Positions 7,744 to 18,714 of a stretch of DNA of 20,491 nt are shown piece by piece. Made by a program: the position numbers and the translations under genes. Source of the stretch: Candidatus Hydrogenedentota bacterium (GTDB lineage: Bacteria; UBA8481; J006). The DNA is taken from NCBI GenBank assembly GCA_003697085.1, contig RFFU01000046.1, forward strand, positions 1-20,491, written 5' to 3'. How positions within the stretch are numbered: the stretch's first letter is position 1; each line of letters begins with the position of its first letter. The notes below the pieces were generated by a model. That model saw only the letters and a list, made by a program, of their open reading frames with translations, had not been told where the DNA came from and searched no databases.

Positions 7744-8073
7744 ATGTCTGATTCGATCGTTCAACTGAATGACGAGAACTTCGAAAGCGAGGTTCTCCAG
7801 TCGAAAATTCCCGTTCTTGTCGATTTTTGGGCGCCGTGGTGCGGCCCCTGCCGTATGATCGCCCCGACGCTCGAAGAACTCTCTTCCGAATACGCCGGAA
7901 AGATCAAGATCGCCAAGTACAATGTGGACGACTACAACAAATACGCCGTCGAACACGGTATCCGCAGTATCCCGGCATTGCTCATCTTCAAAGGAGGGCA
8001 GGTCGCCGAGAGCCTCGTCGGGGCCCTCCCCAAATCGGCCATCGCCCAGAAGATCGACGCCGTCGTCGGGTGA
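7744..8073 (+). CDS. trxA: Thioredoxin
   Basis: A 109-residue classical thioredoxin, the usual length of the family. It contains the active site WCGPC (Cys33 and Cys36), the preceding VLVDFWAP strand, and the cis-proline in SIPALLIF (Pro77). It reduces protein disulfides in the cytoplasm, normally recharged by thioredoxin reductase (not in the window). The ATG at 7744 is chosen because AAGGAG lies 9 bases upstream; the in-frame TTG at 7738 is too close to that site. It follows asd by 2 bases. The stop codon is directly followed by a CACGGA repeat array in the sense orientation, with no clear terminator hairpin. Confidence 0.97.
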   Translation: MSDSIVQLNDENFESEVLQSKIPVLVDFWAPWCGPCRMIAPTLEELSSEYAGKIKIAKYNVDDYNKYAVEHGIRSIPALLIFKGGQVAESLVGALPKSAIAQKIDAVVG

Positions 8074-8204
8074 CCACGAAGGACACGGAAGAAAAAACCA
8101 CGGAAGACTCGGAATGACGCGGAAGAAAGAAGGAACCACGGAACACGCAGAATAACACGGAAGAATGAACGAACCACGGAACACGCGGAAGGACACGGAA
8201 CAGA
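8074..8204 (+). repeat. CACGGA repeat array 3' of trxA
   Basis: From the first base after the trxA stop there is a run of about ten degenerate units based on CACGGAA, with variants CACGAAGG, CTCGGAATGACGCGGAAG and CACGCGGAAG, often preceded by AACC. Unit spacing is irregular at about 9-15 bases, which rules out CRISPR. The same family in the opposite orientation lies at 841-870. Open frames across it are low-complexity and not credible genes. Confidence 0.75.
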
Positions 8205-8231
8205 AGAAAGGCAAAAGAAAAAAGGGAAGGG
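8205..8231 (+). repeat. Purine-tract repeat (AGAAAGGCAAA family)
   Basis: AGAAAGGCAAAAG, then an A6 run and GGGAAGGG, directly continues the CACGGA array. The core is shared with 774-796 (minus) and 18261-18290 (plus), in each case on the coding strand of the gene just upstream. Confidence 0.55.
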
Positions 8232-8310: not shown

Positions 8311-8388
8311 TCGCCCGTGCCGCCCCCTTCCTCCTCCCCCCTGCTTTCCCCCCGTTTTTTTCTTTTTCCTTCTCCCTTTCCTTCCTCC
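8311..8388 (+). repeat. Long pyrimidine tract
   Basis: Roughly 78 bases are almost all C and T on the plus strand, with a T7 run near 8355. It ends directly in the GGCTCACCA element. Translated frames here are proline/phenylalanine-rich and are not signs of a gene. Confidence 0.5.
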
Positions 8389-8407
8389 AGCCGGCTCACC
8401 AGTTCCC
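8385..8407 (+). promoter_or_regulatory. GGCTCACCA upstream element, copy 1 (divergent)
   Basis: CTCCAGCCGGCTCACCAG at the end of a pyrimidine tract matches two near-identical elements at 17183-17205 and 18374-18396 (shared CCAG, then GGCTCACCA). It ends 90 bases before the PPC-domain gene start. Function unknown; possibly a repeat end or a regulatory site. Confidence 0.45.
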
Positions 8408-8497
8408 CTTGCATTCCCAAAAACCGCCTTTTCGACTTCAAATCTTCCTCCGGATTCCATACCATTATGTTTCGTGGGTTCGTTTTCTCGAAAACCA

Positions 8498-10246
8498 ATG
8501 CGTTCTCGAACGGTCTTTTCCGCTCTCGTTCTTGCGGTCCTTGTTCTTCCGGGGATCATTGCTCCGCCGGTCCGTGCCGAAAAACCGCTCACGATCGACA
8601 GCATCGATCTCAACGGCCAGTACGACCGCACCATCGTCGTCCGTCCGGGTCAACTCATCGAGGGAACCGTCGTCGTGACGACCAGTTCGGGTTCATGGTT
8701 CAACGAACACACGGGCGTATGGTTGCCTTCCTGGCACAAGGTCGAGTCGGAGTTGCGGGTTTTTCTCTTCTCCCTGATGGGCGGCAACACGACGACGGAG
8801 GTGCCGATCGAGATTCGAGCGCCGGCGACTCCGGGAACCTACTACCTTCTCTTCTGCTTCGACAAGAAGTTGAAGAATGAAATGATAAACGAGATGTCGA
8901 TGCGCACGGACGAACAGGTCTTCGCCAACGGACGTGCCATCAGAGTCATCGTCGATCCCGTCCGGCCGATTCCCGAACAACCTACCAGCAGGGAGAACGC
9001 CGTCGCTCTCGTGATCGACGGCCCGACGATGCGCGGCCATGTCTCCAACGGCCGCTCCTATTGGTTCCGCGTCTTCGTCCCGCGCAGCTGGGATCAGAAC
9101 AACAACGCCCTCGTCTTCTATCTCGAGGGCGCCGATCCGACCTCGGACATCGATATGGAGGTGCTCGATGAATCCGGAAAACGGCGCGGGTTCTCCGGCA
9201 AGGAAGGCAGTCGCCGGGAACGATCCGCCGTTCACGCCTTTCCCGGAGAAATCCTTTTCGTCCGCGTCTATCCCTTCAAGAGAGAGACGAAAAACAATTT
9301 TTCTCTCACCGCCTTCACCCGCCCCCTTTTGATGGAGACACGTGATCCCTCCTCGGGTCGGGCCCGGAGGGTCGGCCTTCCGTACCACGGCGCCGCCGCC
9401 GCGGGCCAAGGAGTCGAGGGGTCTGCGTGGTACCGTATCGTCCTCCCGCAGCGAGGTTCCCTCGCCGTCGGAATCGAGGGGAAAAACCCGGCGAATGACA
9501 TCGACATCTGGATCTATGACGCCTTCGGAAACGTGCGCGCGCGAAGCCGCGCCGACGGGAGTCGCCGGGAGACCTCTCTGCTCGAAAACGCCGAGGCGGG
9601 TGATTACTTCGTCCGCGTCGGAGCCTTCCGAACCGCCACCCCCTATCCCGTCTCTGTTTCCATCTCGACGAAAACGACGGATCTCTTTCCCTCTTCGCAA
9701 CCCACCGATGCGAATACCAACGGCGCGCCGCCTCCTTCCGCCGCCCCCTCCGATACAGGACGAAAACCTCCGGTCCCCTTCGACGTCTGGAAGGGACACA
9801 AATTCGAGGCCTGGTTCCGCGTAGCGAAGGAATCCGGCTTTCTGCTCGAGGTTTATACCGGCTGGGGCGATGCGGGAAAACTCGATGCTTTACGTCTCGA
9901 AGATCCCAAAGGGAAGATCATCTGGAATGTGGTCCCGGAAGGGCGGGGCTGGGAAGCCCGGCGTTTCTCTTCCCCCACTCCGGGATGGTATCACCTCACC
10001 GTGGAATACAACGGCGAGATTCGGCGCCATGGCCGAGTGAATATCGAAGGGCTCGACGAGAATCTCCTTTATTTCACGCCTCCCGGGTCTTCCGGACTCG
10101 GTACCGGCGGAAAAGGACTCGATCCCGCCGAACGCGCCGTACTGAGAAAACTCTATGAAATGTTCCGCATCCGTGCTACAAACGGAATCGATACCGAAGA
10201 GCAACGGCGTCTCGAGGATCTCGAGAAGTATTTCGAGGAAAACTAG
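8498..10246 (+). CDS. Secreted protein with PPC-like beta domains
   Basis: A 582-residue exported protein, numbered from the ATG at 8498. Signal peptide 1-27 (core FSALVLAVLVLPGII, cleavage after VRA). Residues 30-152 form an all-beta domain. Two modules at about 170-272 and 295-392 look like bacterial pre-peptidase C-terminal (PPC) domains, with YWFRVFVP / DIDMEVLD / GEILFVRVYP and WYRIVLPQ / DIDIWIYD / GDYFVRVG. A Pro/Ser/Asn linker (397-430) leads to a third PPC-like module (432-520) and a helical tail (540-582). No peptidase domain is present, so the binding domains stand alone, unlike their usual role as protease appendages. The frame extends upstream to 8270, but that part is low-complexity repeat sequence. 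The true start is set by the signal peptide; no Shine-Dalgarno is visible. It is probably cotranscribed with the lipoprotein 31 bases downstream. Confidence 0.85.
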   Translation: MRSRTVFSALVLAVLVLPGIIAPPVRAEKPLTIDSIDLNGQYDRTIVVRPGQLIEGTVVVTTSSGSWFNEHTGVWLPSWHKVESELRVFLFSLMGGNTTTEVPIEIRAPATPGTYYLLFCFDKKLKNEMINEMSMRTDEQVFANGRAIRVIVDPVRPIPEQPTSRENAVALVIDGPTMRGHVSNGRSYWFRVFVPRSWDQNNNALVFYLEGADPTSDIDMEVLDESGKRRGFSGKEGSRRERSAVHAFPGEILFVRVYPFKRETKNNFSLTAFTRPLLMETRDPSSGRARRVGLPYHGAAAAGQGVEGSAWYRIVLPQRGSLAVGIEGKNPANDIDIWIYDAFGNVRARSRADGSRRETSLLENAEAGDYFVRVGAFRTATPYPVSVSISTKTTDLFPSSQPTDANTNGAPPPSAAPSDTGRKPPVPFDVWKGHKFEAWFRVAKESGFLLEVYTGWGDAGKLDALRLEDPKGKIIWNVVPEGRGWEARRFSSPTPGWYHLTVEYNGEIRRHGRVNIEGLDENLLYFTPPGSSGLGTGGKGLDPAERAVLRKLYEMFRIRATNGIDTEEQRRLEDLEKYFEEN

Positions 10247-10277
10247 AAGAGAAAAAAAGAGGGAGGACATCCGAAAA

Positions 10278-10925
10278 ATGAAACCATTTCATCCGCTCCG
10301 CGTCCTATCCGCGGGAGTAATCGCCCTTTCGGTAATCGGTTGCCAGACGTTTCCGGCCGCGTACACGGTCGAATCGCATCCGCGGGTCTCGGCCTCCGCT
10401 CCGACCGTTCTGGTCAAGACCCTCCGTGACGAACGACCGGAAGAAGAGAAGACGGGAGAAGGGGCCGGATTCCTGAACCGCTCGACCAAGGACTCCCTTT
10501 ACTCCGAACCCGTGGCGGACGGATTGACCCGGGCTCTGATTGAGGAATTGCGTGCGCGAAACATCAACGCCGTCACCGACGGATCCGCTCCCTACGTTCT
10601 CGAAGGATCCGTCAAATCCTACCGCGCCATGCTCGTTCCTCCGCGGACCGCCTTCATTCCCTACATCAGTTACGTCACCTGGATGTGGACCCACGATATC
10701 ATCTCCGCCGGCGTCACGGTCGATCTCAAACTTTCCGGTCCGGAAGGAACGCTCATCGACGACACCTACGCCCTCAATAAGGACACAACCACCTGGGTGG
10801 GGTTGGCCGGGTTGTCCTCGAGCGCGCGGCGGATGGATCGCACGGAATTGGTGAAATTCCTCCACGCGGGAGCAAAGGACGTTCTCGGACGCGCCGCCGA
10901 CGACATCGCCGCTCGGGTAAAGTAA
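10278..10925 (+). CDS. Outer-membrane lipoprotein, YajG/LptE-like in outline
   Basis: A 215-residue lipoprotein. A short signal peptide ends in a lipobox LSVIGC, with the lipidated cysteine at 22. The mature domain alternates beta strands and helices: TVLVKTLRDERP, VADGLTRALIEELRARNINAV, YVLEGSVKSYRAML, SAGVTVDLKLSGPEGTLIDD and a C-terminal helix with FLHAGAKDVLGRAADDI. This pattern (metal- or ligand-like 'function of paralogous subunits' with an ADYVLEG-like strand) resembles the YajG class of uncharacterised lipoproteins, but I would not assign it firmly. The ATG at 10278 is preceded by GGGAGGA at a 10-base spacing. It follows the PPC-domain secreted protein by 31 bases, which suggests a shared role at the cell surface. 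Confidence 0.85.
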   Translation: MKPFHPLRVLSAGVIALSVIGCQTFPAAYTVESHPRVSASAPTVLVKTLRDERPEEEKTGEGAGFLNRSTKDSLYSEPVADGLTRALIEELRARNINAVTDGSAPYVLEGSVKSYRAMLVPPRTAFIPYISYVTWMWTHDIISAGVTVDLKLSGPEGTLIDDTYALNKDTTTWVGLAGLSSSARRMDRTELVKFLHAGAKDVLGRAADDIAARVK

Positions 10926-11083
10926 CGACTCGAAAGGTTCCCTTCGCATTGTAGAAAAAAATTCTCGGCGGCGAGCAGGATATCTTTGTCTAAAAAAAAA
11001 GGCCATTCCTCAAAACGATTCTTCCCGGCCGGAAGATGATCAAACTCTCTCTTGAAGATGACAGAACAGGAATCTGCCAAAGC

Positions 11084-11104
11084 GAGGAAGGGTTCTTCTT
11101 CCTC
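11084..11104. terminator. Weak hairpin between converging genes
   Basis: GAGGAAG / GGTTCTT / CTTCCTC is a 7-base perfect stem with a 7-base loop. It lies 20 bases 3' of the phoU stop (minus) and 160 bases 3' of the lipoprotein stop (plus), so it could end either transcript. A run of nine A at 10994-11002 reads as T9 for the phoU transcript, but no strong stem precedes it. Confidence 0.3.
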
Positions 11105-11123
11105 CCGTTATTCCTCCCCTCCG

Positions 11124-11786
11124 TTACTCCTCCCAGCGGTGATGCCGGATAATCTCCCCCTCGACCATAAAGACAACGTCCTCGGCGATATTCGTCGCCA
11201 GATCACCGATTCGTTCCAAATGCCGCGACACACTGAGCGTATGGACGGCACGTTCGACCGTCTCCGGATCGGTCCGCATCAACTGCTGTAAAATATCGTA
11301 CATCTCCCGGTTCCGTTCGTCGATCTCATCGTCACAACGACAGACCTCGCGCGCCAGCACGGCATCCTGGCGGACAAGAGCATCGAGGCTGCGCCTCACT
11401 TGTCCTCGAACCGCCGTCACCATCCCCTCGAAGTCCACGGGGGCATCGAGCGGTTCGCGTTTTGAGAGAAAGGCCGCTCGCTCCGCGATATCCACCGCCA
11501 AATCGCCGATCCTTTCCAGGTCATTGTTCACTTTCATCACGGCAATTATGAAGCGCAGATCCGCCGCAACCGGTTGGTGAAGAGCCAGAACCTTCAGACA
11601 ATCCGACTCGATCTCGACTTCGCTCTCGTCGATCCGCTCATCCCCCACCAGTACTTTCTTGGCAAGTTCCCGGTCCCTCTTGATCACGGCTCGCGTCGCC
11701 TGTTGAAAAGCGTCCTCGACCAACCTCCCCTCGGCAAGAATCGCCTTTTTGAGTTCCTCGAGATCCCGTTGAAAATGCTTGGTCAT
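11124..11786 (-). CDS. phoU: Phosphate signalling protein PhoU
   Basis: A 220-residue cytoplasmic all-helical protein with the two-fold repeat of the family. The metal-binding-type motifs are NNDLERIGDLAVDIAERA in the first half and SRHLERIGDLATNIAED in the second. The N-terminus MTKHFQRDLEELKKAIL is also typical, and the length is normal. PhoU links PstSCAB phosphate transport to PhoR and keeps PhoR in phosphatase mode when phosphate is plentiful. The ATG at 11786 has AAAGGA 7 bases upstream. It lies 93 bases after phoR on the same strand, so phoB-phoR-phoU probably form one regulatory unit. No pst genes are present in the window. Confidence 0.95.
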   Translation of the reverse strand: MTKHFQRDLEELKKAILAEGRLVEDAFQQATRAVIKRDRELAKKVLVGDERIDESEVEIESDCLKVLALHQPVAADLRFIIAVMKVNNDLERIGDLAVDIAERAAFLSKREPLDAPVDFEGMVTAVRGQVRRSLDALVRQDAVLAREVCRCDDEIDERNREMYDILQQLMRTDPETVERAVHTLSVSRHLERIGDLATNIAEDVVFMVEGEIIRHHRWEE

Positions 11787-11879
11787 TCCTCCATCCTTTC
11801 TGCCGTTCTTCTCCTCGGACTCGCGAATACTCTTCCTCGATTCCCCACGGAATCTTAAGCCAAATCCCTTAAACTTTCG

Positions 11880-13730
11880 TTAAAGATCCGATGAAATTTC
11901 CATCGGGATGCGAATACGAAAGAGCGCCCCGCCCGTGCTCCCGCGGTGGACCGAAATCGTCCCCCGATGGCGCAGAACGATATCCTTGACTATGGAAAGC
12001 CCGAGGCCGCTGCCGCCTTCCTCCCGCGTTCGGCTCCGCTCGATCCGATAAAACCGTTCGAAAATCCGCTCCCGCTCCTCCTCCGGTATCCCCGGCCCGT
12101 CATCCTCCACCTCGATCTCGGCCTCGCCGTCTCGTTCGCGAATCCTCACCCGAATCCACTCTCCTCCAGCCGCATGGCGCACGGCATTCTCGAGAAGATT
12201 CCGTAAGGCCCGTTCCAACAACCGCCGCGCCGCCGTCACCGGTACGGGAGCCCCGGACGTTTCGATCTCGAGCCGCGGACCTTCCGAAGAAGACGCCGCC
12301 TCGAACTCCTTCCCAACCTCCGACAATTCGCGAAGATCGAACCCTTCTCTCTCTCCGGCGGTCGCATCCGCATCCAACCGAGAAAGCGTCAACACATCCT
12401 CGACGATCTCCTCGAGTCGCGACCCGTGGCGGTGGGCCATTTCGAGGAACGGCTTTCCGTCTTCGCCGACGAATTCCTGCAGCGTCTCGAGCGCACCGCG
12501 GATCGCGGTCACGGGGGTCCGCAACTCGTGAGATGCATTCGCGACGAATTTCCTTCGCATTTCCTCGTTCCTCCGTCGCTCCGTTACATCCTCGATCACC
12601 ATCACGGCTCCCATCACTCGTCCCTCCTCCGAACGAATCGGATTCGCCGAATAGCGGACGTAGGATTCGCCGGAGGGGAGTTCCACCTGTCCTTCGCCGC
12701 GAACCGTTCTTCCTTCTTGAAGAGCCGTTCGAAAGGCGTTGCAAAATCGTGGATTTCGAATCTCCTCCCAATACTTTTTTCCATGGAAGGGCTCGACGAG
12801 GTCGAGCAGCCGCCGGGCCGCGGCGTTTCCGAAAAGAATCCGCTCCTGCTCGTCCACCGCCACAACCCCCTCGTTCATCTCGCGAAAGATCGTTTCGAGC
12901 CGTTCGCGGCCATCTCTTTCCTTCTTCCAGTTCTCCTCGAACCGGTCGGTCAGTTCATTGAGCGAATTTCCGAGTCTTCCCAACTCGTCCTCGTCAAGCA
13001 CCACCCACCTCCGTTCGGCTCTCCCCTCCGCCATCTCCTCCGCAAGCTTCGTCAACGCTCGCAAGGGGCGAATCATTCGCCGAGCGGTTCGAAAGGAGAC
13101 AAGAGCCAGAAGAAACTCGGCCAGAAGAAAAACTAGCCCGCACCGTTTCAGATCGCCTCTGATATCGTTCCACGGAAAAGCCGGCCTCCAGGAGTGGAAA
13201 ATCACTTCTTGCTCTCTCATACGACCGAACGGGATCGCGAAGAAAAGCGCATCCTGCTTGAGGGCCGGGTCCCAGCGGCGCGCCCGCCCGATTCGTCCCG
13301 CCAGCGCCTGCTGGACCTCCGGTGGATAGGGACCACGCGAAACCGTTTTCCGAATATTCCCTTCTTCTCCAAGATTGTTGGAAGACCGCCCCCTCGCCGT
13401 TTCCTTTGCCTCCTCCCTTGATGGCGAAACCACAAGTTCAAAATACCAGTCCCGAAATTCCTCCTTCCCGGCGAGTTCGGAGAGAAATTTCTCCCGATTC
13501 GCCGTGCTCGCGGTGGCCGCCGCTTCGAGAACGGCAATGATCCGATTCGTTTCCTTTCGGTGGAACGCGATGCGGGAATCGACGGACAGACCTCCCAGAG
13601 CGAGAATAACCAGCAGCAACGCCGTCGTTCCGGAAAGAAAAAGTTGGCGAAAACGCCGTCGAAAAAGTGGAGATTCCCAATCTCTCTTCAAGAGGCGGGT
13701 TGATCGACTTTCATCGTGATTTTCCTTCAT
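11880..13730 (-). CDS. phoR: Sensor histidine kinase, PhoR type
   Basis: A 616-residue membrane kinase. In order: TM1 at about 34-50, an extracytoplasmic sensor of about 140 residues, TM2 at about 196-213, HAMP at about 214-266, a PAS domain at about 274-385 (ETIFREMNEGVVAVDEQERILFGN), HisKA with the phospho-acceptor in FVANASHELRTPV (His401), and an ATPase domain with N-box LLENAVRHA, G1 DDGPGIP and G2 GGSGLGLSI. The large periplasmic sensor resembles the Bacillus-type PhoR more than the short E. coli form. The ATG at 13730 is chosen because GAGGAG lies 5 bases upstream; a GTG at 13748 is in frame. It overlaps phoB by 20 bases. The pairing with phoB and phoU supports phosphate sensing; the motifs alone would fit other OmpR-class sensors. 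Confidence 0.93.
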   Translation of the reverse strand: MKENHDESRSTRLLKRDWESPLFRRRFRQLFLSGTTALLLVILALGGLSVDSRIAFHRKETNRIIAVLEAAATASTANREKFLSELAGKEEFRDWYFELVVSPSREEAKETARGRSSNNLGEEGNIRKTVSRGPYPPEVQQALAGRIGRARRWDPALKQDALFFAIPFGRMREQEVIFHSWRPAFPWNDIRGDLKRCGLVFLLAEFLLALVSFRTARRMIRPLRALTKLAEEMAEGRAERRWVVLDEDELGRLGNSLNELTDRFEENWKKERDGRERLETIFREMNEGVVAVDEQERILFGNAAARRLLDLVEPFHGKKYWEEIRNPRFCNAFRTALQEGRTVRGEGQVELPSGESYVRYSANPIRSEEGRVMGAVMVIEDVTERRRNEEMRRKFVANASHELRTPVTAIRGALETLQEFVGEDGKPFLEMAHRHGSRLEEIVEDVLTLSRLDADATAGEREGFDLRELSEVGKEFEAASSSEGPRLEIETSGAPVPVTAARRLLERALRNLLENAVRHAAGGEWIRVRIRERDGEAEIEVEDDGPGIPEEERERIFERFYRIERSRTREEGGSGLGLSIVKDIVLRHRGTISVHRGSTGGALFRIRIPMEISSDL

Positions 13731-14442
13731 TGCGACTCCTCGAGGCACGGAACCGATACCCGATTCCGCGAACCGTTTCTACCACGCCGGCTCGATCCCC
13801 GAGTTTCTTTCGAATCGAGCGGATATGAACATCGACGTTTCGTTCGACCACCGCGGTTCCCGCCGCGGCGCAGCGCGAGAGAATCTCCCTGCGAGTCATC
13901 ACCGCCCCGTCCCTTTCCATCAGGTTCTCCAGGATATTCCATTCGGTAACCGTAAGGGAAATCTCTCGTCCGTTCACACTGGCGCGATGGGAATTTCTGT
14001 CGAGGCGGACGCCGGCCCTTTCGAGGCATCCTCCCTTTTTTTCCTCGAGCCGTTTACGCTCCGAACGCCGGAGAAGCGCCTTGACGCGAGCCACGAGTTC
14101 CTTCGTTCCGAACGGCTTTCTCACGTAATCGTCGGCGCCCAACGCCAACCCCACGACCACATCGGTCTCCTCCGTCTTGGCCGTCAACATCAAGATCGGT
14201 ATCGATTCCGTGAGGGAATCCGCCTTCAGCAAGCGGCAGACCTCGTCTCCGTCAAGCCCGGGAACCATGCGATCGAGGATCAGCAGTTCGATCGGCAGGT
14301 CTCGAGCGAGACGAAGCCCATCCGTTCCCGACCCGGCTTCGATGACACGAAACCCTTCCTTTTCGAGATGGAAACGGATGAGGCTTCGGATATCCTCCTC
14401 ATCCTCCACAACAAGAATGGTGTTATCAACCTGTTCCCGCAT
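13711..14442 (-). CDS. phoB: OmpR/PhoB-family response regulator
   Basis: A 243-residue DNA-binding regulator. The receiver domain has acidic residues VVEDEED (12-18), phospho-acceptor Asp57 in LLILDRMVPG, Thr87 and Lys109 followed by proline. A winged-helix output domain ends in ERNVDVHIRSIRKKLG and VETVRGIGYRF, the PhoB/OmpR signature. Once phosphorylated by PhoR it would switch Pho-regulon promoters. The ATG at 14442 lacks a clear Shine-Dalgarno. A candidate promoter lies at 14460-14489, giving a very short leader. It is followed by phoR with a 20-base overlap. The subfamily name rests on the phoR/phoU neighbours and sequence style. Confidence 0.93.
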   Translation of the reverse strand: MREQVDNTILVVEDEEDIRSLIRFHLEKEGFRVIEAGSGTDGLRLARDLPIELLILDRMVPGLDGDEVCRLLKADSLTESIPILMLTAKTEETDVVVGLALGADDYVRKPFGTKELVARVKALLRRSERKRLEEKKGGCLERAGVRLDRNSHRASVNGREISLTVTEWNILENLMERDGAVMTRREILSRCAAAGTAVVERNVDVHIRSIRKKLGDRAGVVETVRGIGYRFRASRSRNEGKSR

Positions 14443-14459
14443 TTTCGCGTCCGGGGATT

Positions 14460-14489
14460 AATATCGCCGACATCGTCTCCGCTGTCCAA
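14460..14489 (-). promoter_or_regulatory. Candidate phoB promoter
   Basis: On the minus strand TTGGAC (14489-14484), an 18-base spacer and GATATT (14465-14460) resemble a sigma-70 promoter. Transcription would begin about 10 bases before the phoB ATG. No clear tandem CTGTCAT-type Pho box is seen here. Confidence 0.35.
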
Positions 14490-14546
14490 TTGGAAAGATT
14501 CTCGTTCAGCAAAAGCCGCGTTGGAAAAATAAGACTTGCCTCCCAC

Positions 14547-14567
14547 CGAAGTCCGCCGCGGACTTCG
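14547..14567 (-). terminator. Strong hairpin 3' of the FecR-domain gene
   Basis: CGAAGTCCG / three-base loop / CGGACTTCG is a perfect 9-base stem, 78 bases beyond the FecR gene stop. On the minus strand there is no immediate U-run, though TTATTTTT follows about 15 bases later. It probably separates the porin-fecR unit from phoB. Confidence 0.45.
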
Positions 14568-14644
14568 TTTCCTCCAACGCCTCTTACGATCTGGGTCGTT
14601 TCCTCATAACGACTCCTGCCGCCCCGTCCGTTCCCCGATTGCGC

Positions 14645-15748
14645 CTAAAGCGTATTGTTGAAGGCCTGGATTTCCGACCGCGTGAAGTTTTTCCAGCTCA
14701 ACGTACCGCCGTTGATCGGATGGAAACTATCGAGCATGTCGTACGTTACACTTCCCGCGAGGAACGAATCGAGCGAAAAGGGCAGGCTTGGGAAATTCGC
14801 GATCGACGCATTCTTGAGCGTGTCGAGTTTGTTCGTCTGCTCGATTTGCGAGGCTGCGGATTTGATCTTCCCATTCGCTGGGTTCTTGATATTTTGAACC
14901 GTGACGATTTCCTCTCCCGCTTTCTTCTTCGTTTTTTGACTGATCGTCCCTCGTTTAACGTTCGAGCCCTGTTGCGTTCCCGTTCCCGCGGCCCCTCCAC
15001 TGGAAATCGTAATCATCTGTCCTGCGCCGACGTTGATCGCCGTCCCACCCAGCTGGCTCTTCCGCCAAACCTGGATGAGACCGGAAATCACCGCATACCG
15101 GACCAGCCCGTTGAAATCCGAGGACCTGTTAATCACGCTCCGAACGATTTCATCGAGCGCCTGGTGCGCCGCGGACTGCAACGCGAGATCGACCATCAGA
15201 TTCAGTGTGTTTACGGGCATCGGAGAAAAGGGATCGACATTAGAGAAGAATTCCGTTCCGCGAACTGCGGCCACGGAAACGGGAGTGACGACTCGATACT
15301 CGGACCCGTTCCTCATTCCTCGAGCGAAATGCCCCATCTCGCCTTGCAACTGGTAGAGAACGATATCTTTCTTTTCCTGACCCGTCGCGAAGAGTTTTCG
15401 GAATCCCGTCTTCTTTCCCAGGGCCTCAATCGGTTTCGCGCGGGCCGCCAGGATAACGGCCGTCGTCTTCTCGGAAAGAACCGTGTGGTTCCGCTTTCCG
15501 AACCTCAAGATCGCGCTCGCTCCCCGCCCCGTCCGGATCGCGTCTCCTTCCCGAAGCGGCATTCGTTCGTGCGCGATGGTCCAAACCTTTTTTCCGTTGA
15601 GACGGACCTTCACGTCTCCGCTGGTTTTGAGGACCGTAAAGAAGAAGTCCCCCGCCACCGCACTCGAACCACTCGTGAGCGGCAGAACGACCACGAGACT
15701 CAAAAACAGAAACCGACGGCCCACCTTCCCTAATGAAAACCCTTTCAT
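14645..15748 (-). CDS. Exported FecR-domain protein
   Basis: A 367-residue secreted or periplasmic protein. Signal peptide 1-32 (core FLFLSLVVVLPL, cleavage near AVAG). The FecR domain spans about 42-167: GDVKVRLNGKKVW, PLREGDAIRTGRGASAILRF, then GEMGHFARGM and the diagnostic YRVVTPVSVAAVRGTEF. A helical and low-complexity C-terminal half follows, containing SSGGAAGTGTQQGSNV. In classical systems FecR is an inner-membrane anti-sigma regulator, but stand-alone exported FecR domains like this lack a transmembrane helix and a sigma-factor gene. Here it is translationally coupled to the porin (TGATG, 1-base overlap), pointing to a joint envelope function. Its role in that pair is unknown. Confidence 0.88.
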   Translation of the reverse strand: MKGFSLGKVGRRFLFLSLVVVLPLTSGSSAVAGDFFFTVLKTSGDVKVRLNGKKVWTIAHERMPLREGDAIRTGRGASAILRFGKRNHTVLSEKTTAVILAARAKPIEALGKKTGFRKLFATGQEKKDIVLYQLQGEMGHFARGMRNGSEYRVVTPVSVAAVRGTEFFSNVDPFSPMPVNTLNLMVDLALQSAAHQALDEIVRSVINRSSDFNGLVRYAVISGLIQVWRKSQLGGTAINVGAGQMITISSGGAAGTGTQQGSNVKRGTISQKTKKKAGEEIVTVQNIKNPANGKIKSAASQIEQTNKLDTLKNASIANFPSLPFSLDSFLAGSVTYDMLDSFHPINGGTLSWKNFTRSEIQAFNNTL

Positions 15749-16836
15749 CAGAACGCCACCACCGTTTGTAGAATGAACTGGTCGTTCGGTATTCCTTCAT
15801 CCGGAACAGCCAGCGTCGAAATTGTTTCCCTGTTGAACTCATACAACGCCTGAATCTGAATATTCGGAGTGTATTCGTAGGTCCCGCCGAGCTGCCAGCG
15901 CTTTCGCTCCCACGAGGCCTGCAGATTGAACGGCATCACCAGATTGTTGTTTTTCAGACGGTCGTACCCGAGGAGGAACTCCGCTTTCCCCCAGCGATAG
16001 GCTCCCGAGATGTTGTAGGTCGTGAGCCGAAGGTCTCCCTCGACCGCGGAGACATATTCCCCAAAGAGGCGGAACGGCCCGTAGGTATAATCGGCCAGCG
16101 CCGAAGCGACGTGCCGGTTCTTGCTTCCCCGTTCGTTGACGATCCCCATCGCTTTGATCAAATCGCGGTCCGCCCGTGTCATCCTGCCGTATGTGTATTC
16201 GCCTCCCAGAACCAAACTTCCCCATTCGCCTCCCGCGCGCCAACCCAGGTGGCCGTACACATCGAAAGCATTGTCTTGAAGGTTCGCATTCGGATTCGGC
16301 CTCGAAAAAGCGAAGGTGTTGCCGATGACCGTTCCCGCCGCGCTCAAGGGATTGTTGTCGACCACCCCCGCCTCCCACGTCCACGCCCCCCGCTCGAAAT
16401 CCGCCTTGACCCCCTTCCAGGTCGGGGTGTGATAGAGCAGCGCCGGAAAGGTCAGCGTCGCCGTCAGAAGCGGCTCTCCCTGCGGTTTGTAGAATTGACC
16501 GATTGTTAGCGTTCCATCGTACGGAAGTCCATCATAGGCGACCCACGCCTCCGAAATGCTCAGACCGTTTCCAGCCACGTTCACGCGCGTGAAACCGCGG
16601 AAATCGTTCGACCACTGGTCCGAAAACGTCAGTGTCCCCTGAACGAAGCGAATCCGCCCGTGCTCCGTATTGGCGATCAGGCCGTTGGAAACGCTCCCTT
16701 GCGCTTCCGCATACTCGACGATCCCCGCACCTCCTATCTCGACGGCATGAACCCTCGATCCGTGAATCCCCGACAGCGAGAGTAACACAACTCCCGCAAC
16801 CAGACATCCCGCCCGACACTTCCCACCAAAGGTCAT
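15748..16836 (-). CDS. Outer-membrane porin, OprP/OprO-like
   Basis: A 362-residue outer-membrane beta-barrel. Signal peptide 1-31 (core CLVAGVVLLSLSGI, cleavage after VHA). Amphipathic strands with aromatic girdles follow to the end, and the C-terminal residue is phenylalanine (FILQTVVAF), the usual BAM recognition signal. The segment ISEAWVAYDGLPYDGTLTIG, then QFYKPQGEPLLTATLTFPALLYHTP, resembles the phosphate-selective porin O/P family. The frame stays open upstream to 17031, but that extension is compositionally non-coding; the ATG at 16836 gives a proper signal peptide and has GAGAGG 9 bases before it. It lies on the same strand just upstream of the FecR gene and of phoBRU, which makes a phosphate or anion channel plausible but unproven. 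Confidence 0.85.
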   Translation of the reverse strand: MTFGGKCRAGCLVAGVVLLSLSGIHGSRVHAVEIGGAGIVEYAEAQGSVSNGLIANTEHGRIRFVQGTLTFSDQWSNDFRGFTRVNVAGNGLSISEAWVAYDGLPYDGTLTIGQFYKPQGEPLLTATLTFPALLYHTPTWKGVKADFERGAWTWEAGVVDNNPLSAAGTVIGNTFAFSRPNPNANLQDNAFDVYGHLGWRAGGEWGSLVLGGEYTYGRMTRADRDLIKAMGIVNERGSKNRHVASALADYTYGPFRLFGEYVSAVEGDLRLTTYNISGAYRWGKAEFLLGYDRLKNNNLVMPFNLQASWERKRWQLGGTYEYTPNIQIQALYEFNRETISTLAVPDEGIPNDQFILQTVVAF

Positions 16837-16896
16837 AGCACAAAACCTCTCTTCTCCGGATCGCCCCCGGATCGTTTTTTCGAACTTCGCCTTTCC

Positions 16897-16921
16897 CGAA
16901 GCGCACCCGGCGCGCGCTTCG
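16897..16921 (-). other. Hairpin upstream of the porin gene
   Basis: CGAAGCGC / nine-base loop / GCGCTTCG is a perfect 8-base inverted repeat 61 bases before the porin ATG. It could be a leader structure or a binding site. The remaining gap between porin and ispH (16837-17277) holds only pyrimidine-rich sequence, a small CGCGG/GATA/CCGCG hairpin near 17072-17085 and the ispH upstream sites; I see no gene in it. Confidence 0.35.
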
Positions 16922-17182
16922 ACCACTTCTTTCACCCCACCATTCTTTCCTCCCTCCGAAACAACGAGGACGAAAGAGCAACAGCGGGTTCCTTCCCAAC
17001 GAAAAAAAGAAACAGAGAAAGGGATTTTCACCCAAAATCGAAAGGTATGTCAAATTCTTTTTCGGTCCGCGGGATACCGCGAAGAACAGGAGGCCCAAGT
17101 AAATCGAGAAAGCCAATTTTTGGGGGCTCCCGTCGTCTTCCCTCCCCCCGTTTTGTTGCCCCAGCCGTCTCATTCCGTCCCG

Positions 17183-17205
17183 CTCCAGGTGGCTCACCAT
17201 GTACC
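17183..17205 (+). promoter_or_regulatory. GGCTCACCA upstream element, copy 2
   Basis: CTCCAGGTGGCTCACCATG followed by TACC matches the copy at 18374-18396 at 21 of 23 positions and, more loosely, the copy at 8385. It contains the small inverted repeat GGTG/GCT/CACC. It ends 72 bases before the ispH ATG and 35 bases before a candidate -35 box. Confidence 0.5.
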
Positions 17206-17212
17206 TGTACAT
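17199..17212. promoter_or_regulatory. Palindrome ATGTACCTGTACAT, possible operator
   Basis: ATGTAC / CT / GTACAT is a perfect 6-base inverted repeat with a 2-base centre, overlapping the end of the GGCTCACCA element and lying 29 bases upstream of the candidate ispH -35 hexamer. It is absent from the other two copies of the element. Confidence 0.35.
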
Positions 17213-17240
17213 TTCTTTCCGCTCTCTAACCTCGACGTCC

Positions 17241-17269
17241 TTGTCTTTCCGTCCTCTCTGCCATACCCT
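17241..17269 (+). promoter_or_regulatory. Candidate ispH promoter
   Basis: TTGTCT (17241-17246), a 17-base spacer and TACCCT (17264-17269) form a plausible sigma-70 promoter. The ATG follows after 8 bases, so the transcript would start at or next to the start codon. There is no Shine-Dalgarno before this ATG. Confidence 0.45.
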
Positions 17270-17277
17270 TCCGCCCT

Positions 17278-18234
17278 ATGAAACGTACTCTCAAGGTTTA
17301 TGTCTCCGCGCCGCGAGGGTTTTGCGCCGGGGTCGATCGCGCCATCGACGTCGTCGAAAAGTGCCTCGAGCTCTTTCCTCCTCCGATCTACGTCCGGCAC
17401 GAGATCGTTCACAATCGTTTCGTCGTCGAACGCCTCCGCCGAAAAGGCGTCGTGTTCGTTGAGAACCTCGACGATGTCCCTGACGGCGCGGTTCTGATCT
17501 TTTCCGCGCACGGTGTTTCCCGCGCGGTCCGCGAGGAAGCCAAGTCGCGGCCATTGAGGCTCATCGATGCCACATGCCCGCTCGTGACAAAGGTCCATCT
17601 CGAGGTTCATCGACTCGCCAAGGAAGGATACGACATCATTCTGATCGGCCACGCCGGACACGTGGAAGTCGAAGGAACGATGGGGCAACTTCCTCCCGGC
17701 GGCATTACGCTCGTTCAGAAACCCGCGGACGTGGAGCGGCTCGAGGTCGCTCATCCTGAAAAGATCGCTTACGTTACCCAAACGACTCTTTCGATCGACG
17801 AAACCTCCGAGGTGGTGGCCGCCTTGAAGAAACGGTTCCCCGCCATTACCGGCCCCCACAAGAACGACATCTGCTACGCAACTCAAAACCGCCAGAACGC
17901 CGTCAAGGCGCTCCTGGGAAAGATTGATCTCCTTCTCGTCATCGGTTCCCAGAATTCCTCCAACTCGAATCGCCTCGTTGAAGTGGCCCGCGCGGCGGGG
18001 GTCAGCGCGTACCTCTTTGATCATCCGGACGAGATGAAAGCCGAATGGTTCGAAAATGTCGAAAGCGTCGGCTTGACCGCCGGCGCCTCGGCCCCCGAGG
18101 ACATCGTCGAGGCGACAAAGGCGGAATTGGCCGAACGCTTCGATGCCCGGTTCGAGGAATTCCGTTACACGGAAGAATCCATTGAATTCAATCTTCCCAA
18201 GGAATTGGCGCATATCTCCTCACCGGAGTCGTAA
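17278..18234 (+). CDS. ispH: 4-hydroxy-3-methylbut-2-enyl diphosphate reductase
   Basis: A 318-residue cytoplasmic iron-sulfur enzyme, the last step of the MEP isoprenoid pathway, converting HMBPP to IPP and DMAPP. The three cluster-binding cysteines are visible: Cys16 in APRGFCAGVDRA, Cys100 in DATCPLVTKV, and Cys199 in DICYATQNRQ. Substrate-contacting histidines are His41 (RHEIVHN), His78 (SAHGVS) and His125/128 (GHAGHVEVEGT). The SSNSNRLVEVA motif is also intact. Length is typical. The ATG has no ribosome-binding site, only a pyrimidine-rich leader with a promoter-like pair ending 8 bases before it, consistent with leaderless translation. It is a single-gene unit; a purine tract and a hairpin follow its stop. 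Confidence 0.97.
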   Translation: MKRTLKVYVSAPRGFCAGVDRAIDVVEKCLELFPPPIYVRHEIVHNRFVVERLRRKGVVFVENLDDVPDGAVLIFSAHGVSRAVREEAKSRPLRLIDATCPLVTKVHLEVHRLAKEGYDIILIGHAGHVEVEGTMGQLPPGGITLVQKPADVERLEVAHPEKIAYVTQTTLSIDETSEVVAALKKRFPAITGPHKNDICYATQNRQNAVKALLGKIDLLLVIGSQNSSNSNRLVEVARAAGVSAYLFDHPDEMKAEWFENVESVGLTAGASAPEDIVEATKAELAERFDARFEEFRYTEESIEFNLPKELAHISSPES

Positions 18235-18260
18235 AGAAGGATTCGCCTCGGAGATCGCGG

Positions 18261-18318
18261 AGAAAGGCAAAGGGAAAAGAAAGGGAGAAAGAAAAACGGA
18301 AGAAGGAATAGCGGGAAG
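18261..18318 (+). repeat. Purine tract 3' of ispH (AGAAAGGCAAA family)
   Basis: AGAAAGGCAAAGGGAAAAG followed by further G/A-rich sequence begins 27 bases after the ispH stop. It is preceded by CTCGGAGATCGCGG, which resembles degenerate CGGA units of the array at 8074-8204. It is the same purine core as at 774-796 (minus) and 8205-8231 (plus), and it is in sense with the upstream gene. Confidence 0.55.
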
Positions 18319-18319
18319 G

Positions 18320-18354
18320 GGAAAGGGGATTTCAGAACAAAAAGTCCCTTTTCC
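18320..18354 (+). terminator. Purine/pyrimidine hairpin 3' of ispH
   Basis: GGAAAGGGGATTT pairs with AAGTCCCTTTTCC through 13 positions, including two G-U pairs, around a 9-base loop. It lies about 85 bases past the ispH stop. There is no U-run after the stem, so termination is plausible but not certain. Confidence 0.4.
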
Positions 18355-18373
18355 GTCTCCACTTCCTTCCCCC

Positions 18374-18396
18374 TTCCAGGTGGCTCACCATGGACC
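18374..18396 (+). promoter_or_regulatory. GGCTCACCA upstream element, copy 3
   Basis: TTCCAGGTGGCTCACCATG followed by GACC is nearly identical to the copy at 17183-17205. It follows a pyrimidine-rich stretch and ends 66 bases before the rpoZ ATG, 31 bases before a candidate -35 hexamer. Confidence 0.5.
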
Positions 18397-18427
18397 GATG
18401 CCTTCCCACGGTAAAGGAGATTTTTTC

Positions 18428-18455
18428 TTGCAATCGAACAGAAAGGAAATAGACT
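18428..18455 (+). promoter_or_regulatory. Candidate rpoZ promoter
   Basis: TTGCAA (18428-18433), a 16-base spacer and TAGACT (18450-18455) resemble a sigma-70 promoter. The rpoZ ATG lies 7 bases after the -10 hexamer, the geometry of a leaderless transcript. Confidence 0.45.
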
Positions 18456-18462
18456 GTCGGCC

Positions 18463-18714
18463 ATGGAAGTTATTATCGAGAAATTGCTCGAGGCAACCGA
18501 GGGATCGAAGTACGTCTTGGCCGCCGCCGCGTCACTCCGAGCGAAACAGATCAACGCCGGCGGCAAGATCTTCGTCGATGCCCACGGGGAGAAGCCCGAC
18601 GTGATCGCGCTCCAGGAGTTGGCCCAGGGACGAATCCGTGTCCGCCTTCTGACTCCGGAGGAGCGGGCCTTGAAAGCAGGAAAGGAAGCACCAAAGAAGA
18701 AGGAGAAGAAATAG
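18463..18714 (+). CDS. rpoZ: RNA polymerase omega subunit
   Basis: An 83-residue protein with the conserved core of the omega/RPB6 family: KYVLAAAASLRAKQINAG (residues 16-33), then KPDVIALQELAQGRIRVRL (44-62), then a lysine-rich tail. Omega helps beta-prime fold and assemble into RNA polymerase and can contribute to ppGpp sensing. The adjacency rpoZ-coaBC is widespread in bacteria and supports the call. AAAGGA lies 15 bases before the ATG, too far for a usual Shine-Dalgarno (it would fit a CTG at 18454, in frame). With the promoter at 18428-18455, leaderless initiation at the ATG is the simpler reading. Confidence 0.93.
   Translation: MEVIIEKLLEATEGSKYVLAAAASLRAKQINAGGKIFVDAHGEKPDVIALQELAQGRIRVRLLTPEERALKAGKEAPKKKEKK

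Follow-up and report, generated by a model that had tools for sequence, protein, structure and literature searches.

A dispersed element at a fixed distance upstream of predicted promoters in a Candidatus Hydrogenedentota genome is a candidate activator-binding site

A conserved element of ~33 nt recurs upstream of genes in the genome of a Candidatus Hydrogenedentota bacterium (assembly GCA_003697085.1), where, at about half of the sites, it stands at one fixed distance from predicted sigma-70-type promoters. The aligned genome-wide copies give the consensus CTCCAGGTGGCTCACCATGTACCTGTGCATTYCC. We consider it reasonably probable, judging from sequence, that the element is the binding site of a putative and probably general class I-type activator, and that it was disseminated in part by copying. 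The motif is new and the type of site is familiar; a literature search found no relevant description of the motif (the results concerned eukaryotes).

Three copies occur in the window, the 20,491-nt stretch of contig RFFU01000046.1 that was analysed. As the original prediction had it, all are on the plus strand; the sequence CCAGNNGGCTCACCA is found at 8387-8401, 17185-17199 and 18376-18390, and these are the sole window matches with up to two mismatches; dinucleotide shuffles have a mean of 0.22 matches and none reaches 3. The other details given for these copies were also reproduced. Between the 23-mers at 17183 and 18374, 21 of 23 positions are identical, a pyrimidine tract precedes each copy (pyrimidine fraction 1.0, 0.73 and 0.90 over 30 nt), and gaps of 90, 72 and 66 nt lead to the ATGs at 8498, 17278 and 18463. 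The 23-nt element described at that time is real, and it makes up just the left two thirds of the conserved unit, in which conservation continues through the right half, ...ACCTGTGCATTYCC, to ~33 nt. This right half is conserved at least as well as the part described before.

Coordinates for the full element come from R1, a 36-column profile built from sequence only. Copy 1, which is divergent, occupies 8385..8420 on the plus strand (R1 E=3.0e-6, 29.1 bits; PWM 36.5 bits), upstream of the gene for a secreted PPC-domain protein (8498..10246, plus strand; Pfam PF04151, E=1.7e-7). Copy 2 (17183..17218, plus strand; R1 E=5.5e-10, 40.9 bits) lies upstream of ispH (17278..18234, plus strand; Pfam LYTB, E=2.8e-96), for which the best matches in a search of named genomes are in Zetaproteobacteria (62%). 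Copy 3 (18374..18409, plus strand; R1 E=7.7e-9, 37.3 bits) is upstream of rpoZ, which encodes RNA polymerase omega (18463..18714, plus strand; Pfam RNA_pol_Rpb6, E=2.2e-10).

Searching the window's genome (3.2 Mb in 145 contigs, 95% complete) with R1 yielded 17 sites at E<1e-4 and 26 at E<=10. One of the weakest R1 sites, C81, was dropped as a 15-nt partial match apparently inside a long ORF. A PWM scan adds one divergent tRNA-Met site, and a promoter-extended profile together with a promoter pattern adds C91, C3 and C143; the promoter pattern recovers the known sites as well as the C143 candidate. The total is ~29 sites, of which the weakest (C129 and C106c) are less certain. The sites are discrete: the genome was searched with the models and a sample of ~400-420 kb was scanned by PWM, and in 420 kb nine sites score 23.7-52.5 bits, everything else scores at most 4.9, and the highest score of the reversed control is 7.2. 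The pattern of the original prediction, allowed one mismatch, has 14 genome-wide matches versus 7 for the reversed-pattern control, and the halves of the longer element, allowed three mismatches, have 13 and 12 versus 0 for the control.

Beyond this genome, one site (E=6.7e-6) was found in G001, the second genome of the phylum that was examined, which belongs to the same order and a different family. The best hit among 58 unrelated genomes has E = 0.0115. A phage link was also looked for, and the viral contigs contain no exact element match. The pyrimidine tract was rejected as a required part of the element, since copies vary in pyrimidine fraction from 0.3 to 1.0 and some element-free tRNAs also have a high fraction upstream.

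Each of the 29 genomic copies points towards a gene downstream of it on its own strand, and these genes are diverse. Four tRNA units are included, namely tRNA-Met (with tRNA-Thr 0.27 kb further), tRNA-Ser, tRNA-Gly/Val and a second tRNA-Met; the other tRNA loci that were read have no element. Besides rpoZ, ispH and the PPC-domain protein gene, the protein-coding genes encode a helix-hairpin-helix protein, MsrAB, pyruvoyl arginine decarboxylase, a flagellar rod/hook protein, a type IV pilin-like protein, a CDGSH protein, transketolase, a sulfatase, a cyclic-nucleotide-binding protein, a PLD-like protein, a PilS-like sensor, and MarR and MerR regulators. RelB and PIN toxin-antitoxin operons also carry the element, as do genes for an AbiEii-like protein, a carbon-nitrogen hydrolase, a DNA methylase, an outer-membrane efflux protein and a radical SAM protein.

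The position of the element relative to promoters was assessed at 26 sites chosen without promoter information, by scoring sigma-70-like promoters (-35, 15-19 nt, -10) at each offset after the element. The mean score peaks at 4.95 at offset 18, compared with a maximum over all offsets of -0.61 in 500 dinucleotide shuffles. The best promoter lies exactly at offset 18 in 14 of the 26 sites, and no more than 5 of 26 fall at any one offset in the shuffles (n=500); a mononucleotide-shuffle version of the test was also run. The peak is present in both strong sites (8/17) and weak sites (6/9), and TTGAAA stands at the same offset in the divergent tRNA-Met site, which was detected with the PWM alone. 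Examples of the -35/-10 pairs are TTGACA/TAGAAT (CDGSH gene), TTGAGA/TACATT (relB), TTGCCC/TATCCT (tRNA-Gly) and TTGCAA/TAGACT (rpoZ). The element averages 1.01 bits of information per column, against 0.07 for the 18-nt spacer and 0.23 for each of the -35 and -10 regions; the spacer is thus not conserved, and its AT content is 56%.

The window sites are uneven in this respect. The candidate promoter of rpoZ (18428..18455, plus strand) consists of TTGCAA (18428-18433) at offset 18, 16 nt, and TAGACT (18450-18455). That of ispH (17241..17269, plus strand), with TTGTCT (17241-17246), 17 nt, and TACCCT (17264-17269), is at offset 22, not 18, and is ambiguous. For the PPC gene the candidate at 8437..8465 (plus strand; TTCAAA at 8437-8442, 17 nt, TACCAT at 8460-8465) is at offset 16 and is likewise ambiguous, with an alternative on the same strand at offset 18 that pairs CAAATC with CATTAT (8463-8468). 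No convincing promoter was identified at the offset in C13, C58 and C106, nor at offset 18 in the single G001 site. The predicted transcription start of rpoZ falls at or beside its ATG (18463) and that of ispH a few bases from its ATG, so both mRNAs are possibly leaderless. At C91 (L211:1-200), which precedes a merR-type gene, the -35 box TTGACT starts 20 nt past the last conserved CC. Here the element is at its usual distance and the 20-bp promoter spacer holds a GTACC/GGTAC inverted repeat, an apparent case of dual control.

The distance that matters is that to the promoter, not to the start codon. The original prediction had proposed a genome-wide check for strand and for distance to the next start codon, with a test for enrichment at -50 to -120 and scattered copies as the outcome that would speak against it. 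Preferences for both orientation and distance are present, and such scatter is absent. The spacing of -50 to -120 to start codons is a by-product of the fixed distance from the element to the -35 hexamer, which replaces start-codon distance as the governing variable. The proposal of an undescribed upstream regulatory site is in turn strengthened by the uniform orientation of the copies and by the single offset that holds the best promoter in about half of them. With the -35 hexamer at -36 to -31, columns 4-34 of the profile span about -87 to -57 relative to the predicted start site, and an offset of 18 therefore places the centre of the site near -72.

A fixed distance to the -35 hexamer across a drifting spacer points to a protein-DNA site that faces RNA polymerase. 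Protein binding, an activating effect and a class I-like contact are what we infer from this arrangement. A candidate sequence-specific protein, or protein pair, would bind the element as double-stranded DNA and, facing the promoter-bound polymerase, could recruit it to weak sigma-70-type promoters, much as class I activators do via alpha-CTD. The contact would be made from about -90 to -55, with the core of the element centred near -72. Because the genes served are diverse, the regulator is probably general rather than pathway-specific. Some copies may have reached new promoters along with adjacent upstream DNA.

Three observations fit a plain operator poorly: one is the lack of a convincing promoter in C13, C58 and C106, and the other two bear on how the copies arose. 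The element contains ~36 bits, versus the ~17.8 bits needed to find ~29 sites in 3.2 Mb, so Rsequence is about twice Rfrequency; this excess suggests either that two readers use the site or that the copies are too young to have decayed. Shared upstream DNA was also detected. C34 and C3 have ~140 nt of upstream sequence plus the element in common, in register (173-nt alignment, 73%), and C29 and the G001 site have ~135 nt plus the element in common (172 nt, 71%), across families. In both pairs the likeness stops at the 3' end of the element and the downstream DNA differs. Because these two pairs share upstream DNA, the copying of a segment that ends at the element probably accounts for the spread of at least a few copies.

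Apart from the element and the pyrimidine tract next to it, most other pairs have little in common. The upstream modules of C29 and C34 returned only themselves in a whole-genome search of limited sensitivity, which missed C3. Upstream of the C29 element (L120) and at L146:620-760 in G001, the sequence conserved across the two families ends exactly at the element and includes a hairpin around CTCGGCC-ACGGCCTCC; it may belong to an insertion sequence or be a terminator.

The main rival to an activator operator is a mobile or copied repeat, in which the element would be the conserved 3' end of an intergenic unit that lands or survives at a fixed promoter distance, with regulation secondary. The original prediction had offered the end of a mobile intergenic repeat as its second option, and this is supported in part, by the two pairs whose common upstream DNA ends where the element does and by the twofold over-conservation; the three copies that lack a convincing promoter also fit. 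Several features nevertheless make it rather unlikely as the whole explanation. Genome scans detected no inverted partner close to any of the copies, unlike in a transposon or MITE, and the left boundary varies among copies, so that there is no common left end; an origin as a transposon or MITE is unsupported on both counts. The flank shared by C63 and C84 belongs to a separate dispersed repeat, which is found without the element as well. Furthermore, ordinary transposition does not predict that unrelated -35 boxes should lie at an offset of exactly 18 nt across a spacer that is not conserved. A variant that unites copying with regulation, which we regard as very unlikely, is a mobile plug-in enhancer: a copied intergenic unit whose conserved end would be set exactly 18 bp from the -35 box through sensing of the promoter or of promoter-bound polymerase, and would then activate unrelated genes including tRNA genes. 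The excess information would in that case reflect two reader proteins, serving transcription and copying respectively.

A bound protein could instead act negatively or structurally, as a repressor that forms a loop, an insulator against read-through or a nucleoid anchor. The diversity of the genes, tRNA genes among them, and the intergenic position of the element suit an architectural role, and a fixed phase may equally serve looping; we judge this decidedly unlikely, however, given that the core stops ~20 bp short of the -35 box, outside the RNA polymerase core footprint, and that the -35 boxes served are mostly weak, as suits an activator. It is barely credible that the element functions within a transcribed leader as an RNA regulatory element. 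The consensus does allow GGTG-GCT-CACC and CAGGT-N12-ACCTG pairing, but neither helix has a single pair changed on both sides and shuffles do equally well, the element precedes the promoters and an Rfam search gave no match. With no covariation in either possible helix and an empty Rfam result, an RNA element was rejected. An operator for an activator, some copies of which spread with neighbouring DNA, is thus the reading that we retain.

Other repeats were noticed near some copies. An array of ~38-nt direct repeats (CCACGGAA-CACGCGGAA-type) occupies 8067-8207 of the window, between a thioredoxin gene and element copy 1, and in C58 and C106 similar short dispersed direct repeats start soon after the element. 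At 484-760 the window has a GC-rich palindromic repeat (GCAGGCAGGATGCCTGCGC type) in three copies, which resembles a REP-like dispersed family; related repeats are found upstream of C8b and C63b. A dispersed intergenic repeat of ~77 nt that contains GACGAGGAATCCCC is present at L248, L237, L235, L252 and L129, both with and without the element.

The element is a concrete and testable upstream promoter element in a barely sampled phylum, of which two genomes were examined. It leads to predictions of start sites, of leaderless rpoZ and ispH mRNAs and of a putative regulator common to tRNA genes and many protein genes. Given the mismatch between information and copy number and the copies with common upstream DNA, it may also exemplify a regulon that arose through the copying of a finished control site.

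Among known systems, the element is like MITEs and other mobile intergenic repeats in having multiple intergenic copies, some with common flanking DNA, and unlike them in that no terminal inverted repeats or common left end were seen, the spacer differs and the phase to the promoter is fixed. Patterns of the known operators of FIS and CRP and LexA-like patterns were considered and are absent from the element sites. UP elements, the contact sites of alpha-CTD, are A+T-rich and located at about -40 to -60. The element is also upstream of the -35 box, but its GC content of 58% and its position at about -90 to -55 set it outside this class. Site I for FIS at Escherichia coli rRNA and tRNA promoters lies near -71. 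The element resembles FIS upstream activating sites in its comparable distance to the start site and in having tRNA genes among its targets; it is, however, GC-rich and far more specific, and the 15-bp FIS consensus is found in 0/30 sites for its core and 1/30 in loose form. The CRP/FNR consensus TGTGA-N6-TCACA has no exact match in 30 element sites, and unlike CRP sites the element is asymmetric, ~33 bp long and used in one orientation only. The class I positions from which CRP activates run from -60.5 to -82.5, a series that includes -71.5 and -72.5 (PMC6301791). As at E. coli class I CRP sites, the element lies upstream of the -35 without overlapping it and at a fixed distance from the promoter (exactly 18 nt for 14 of 26 best promoters), and its centre near -72, counted from predicted start sites, falls within the CRP series.
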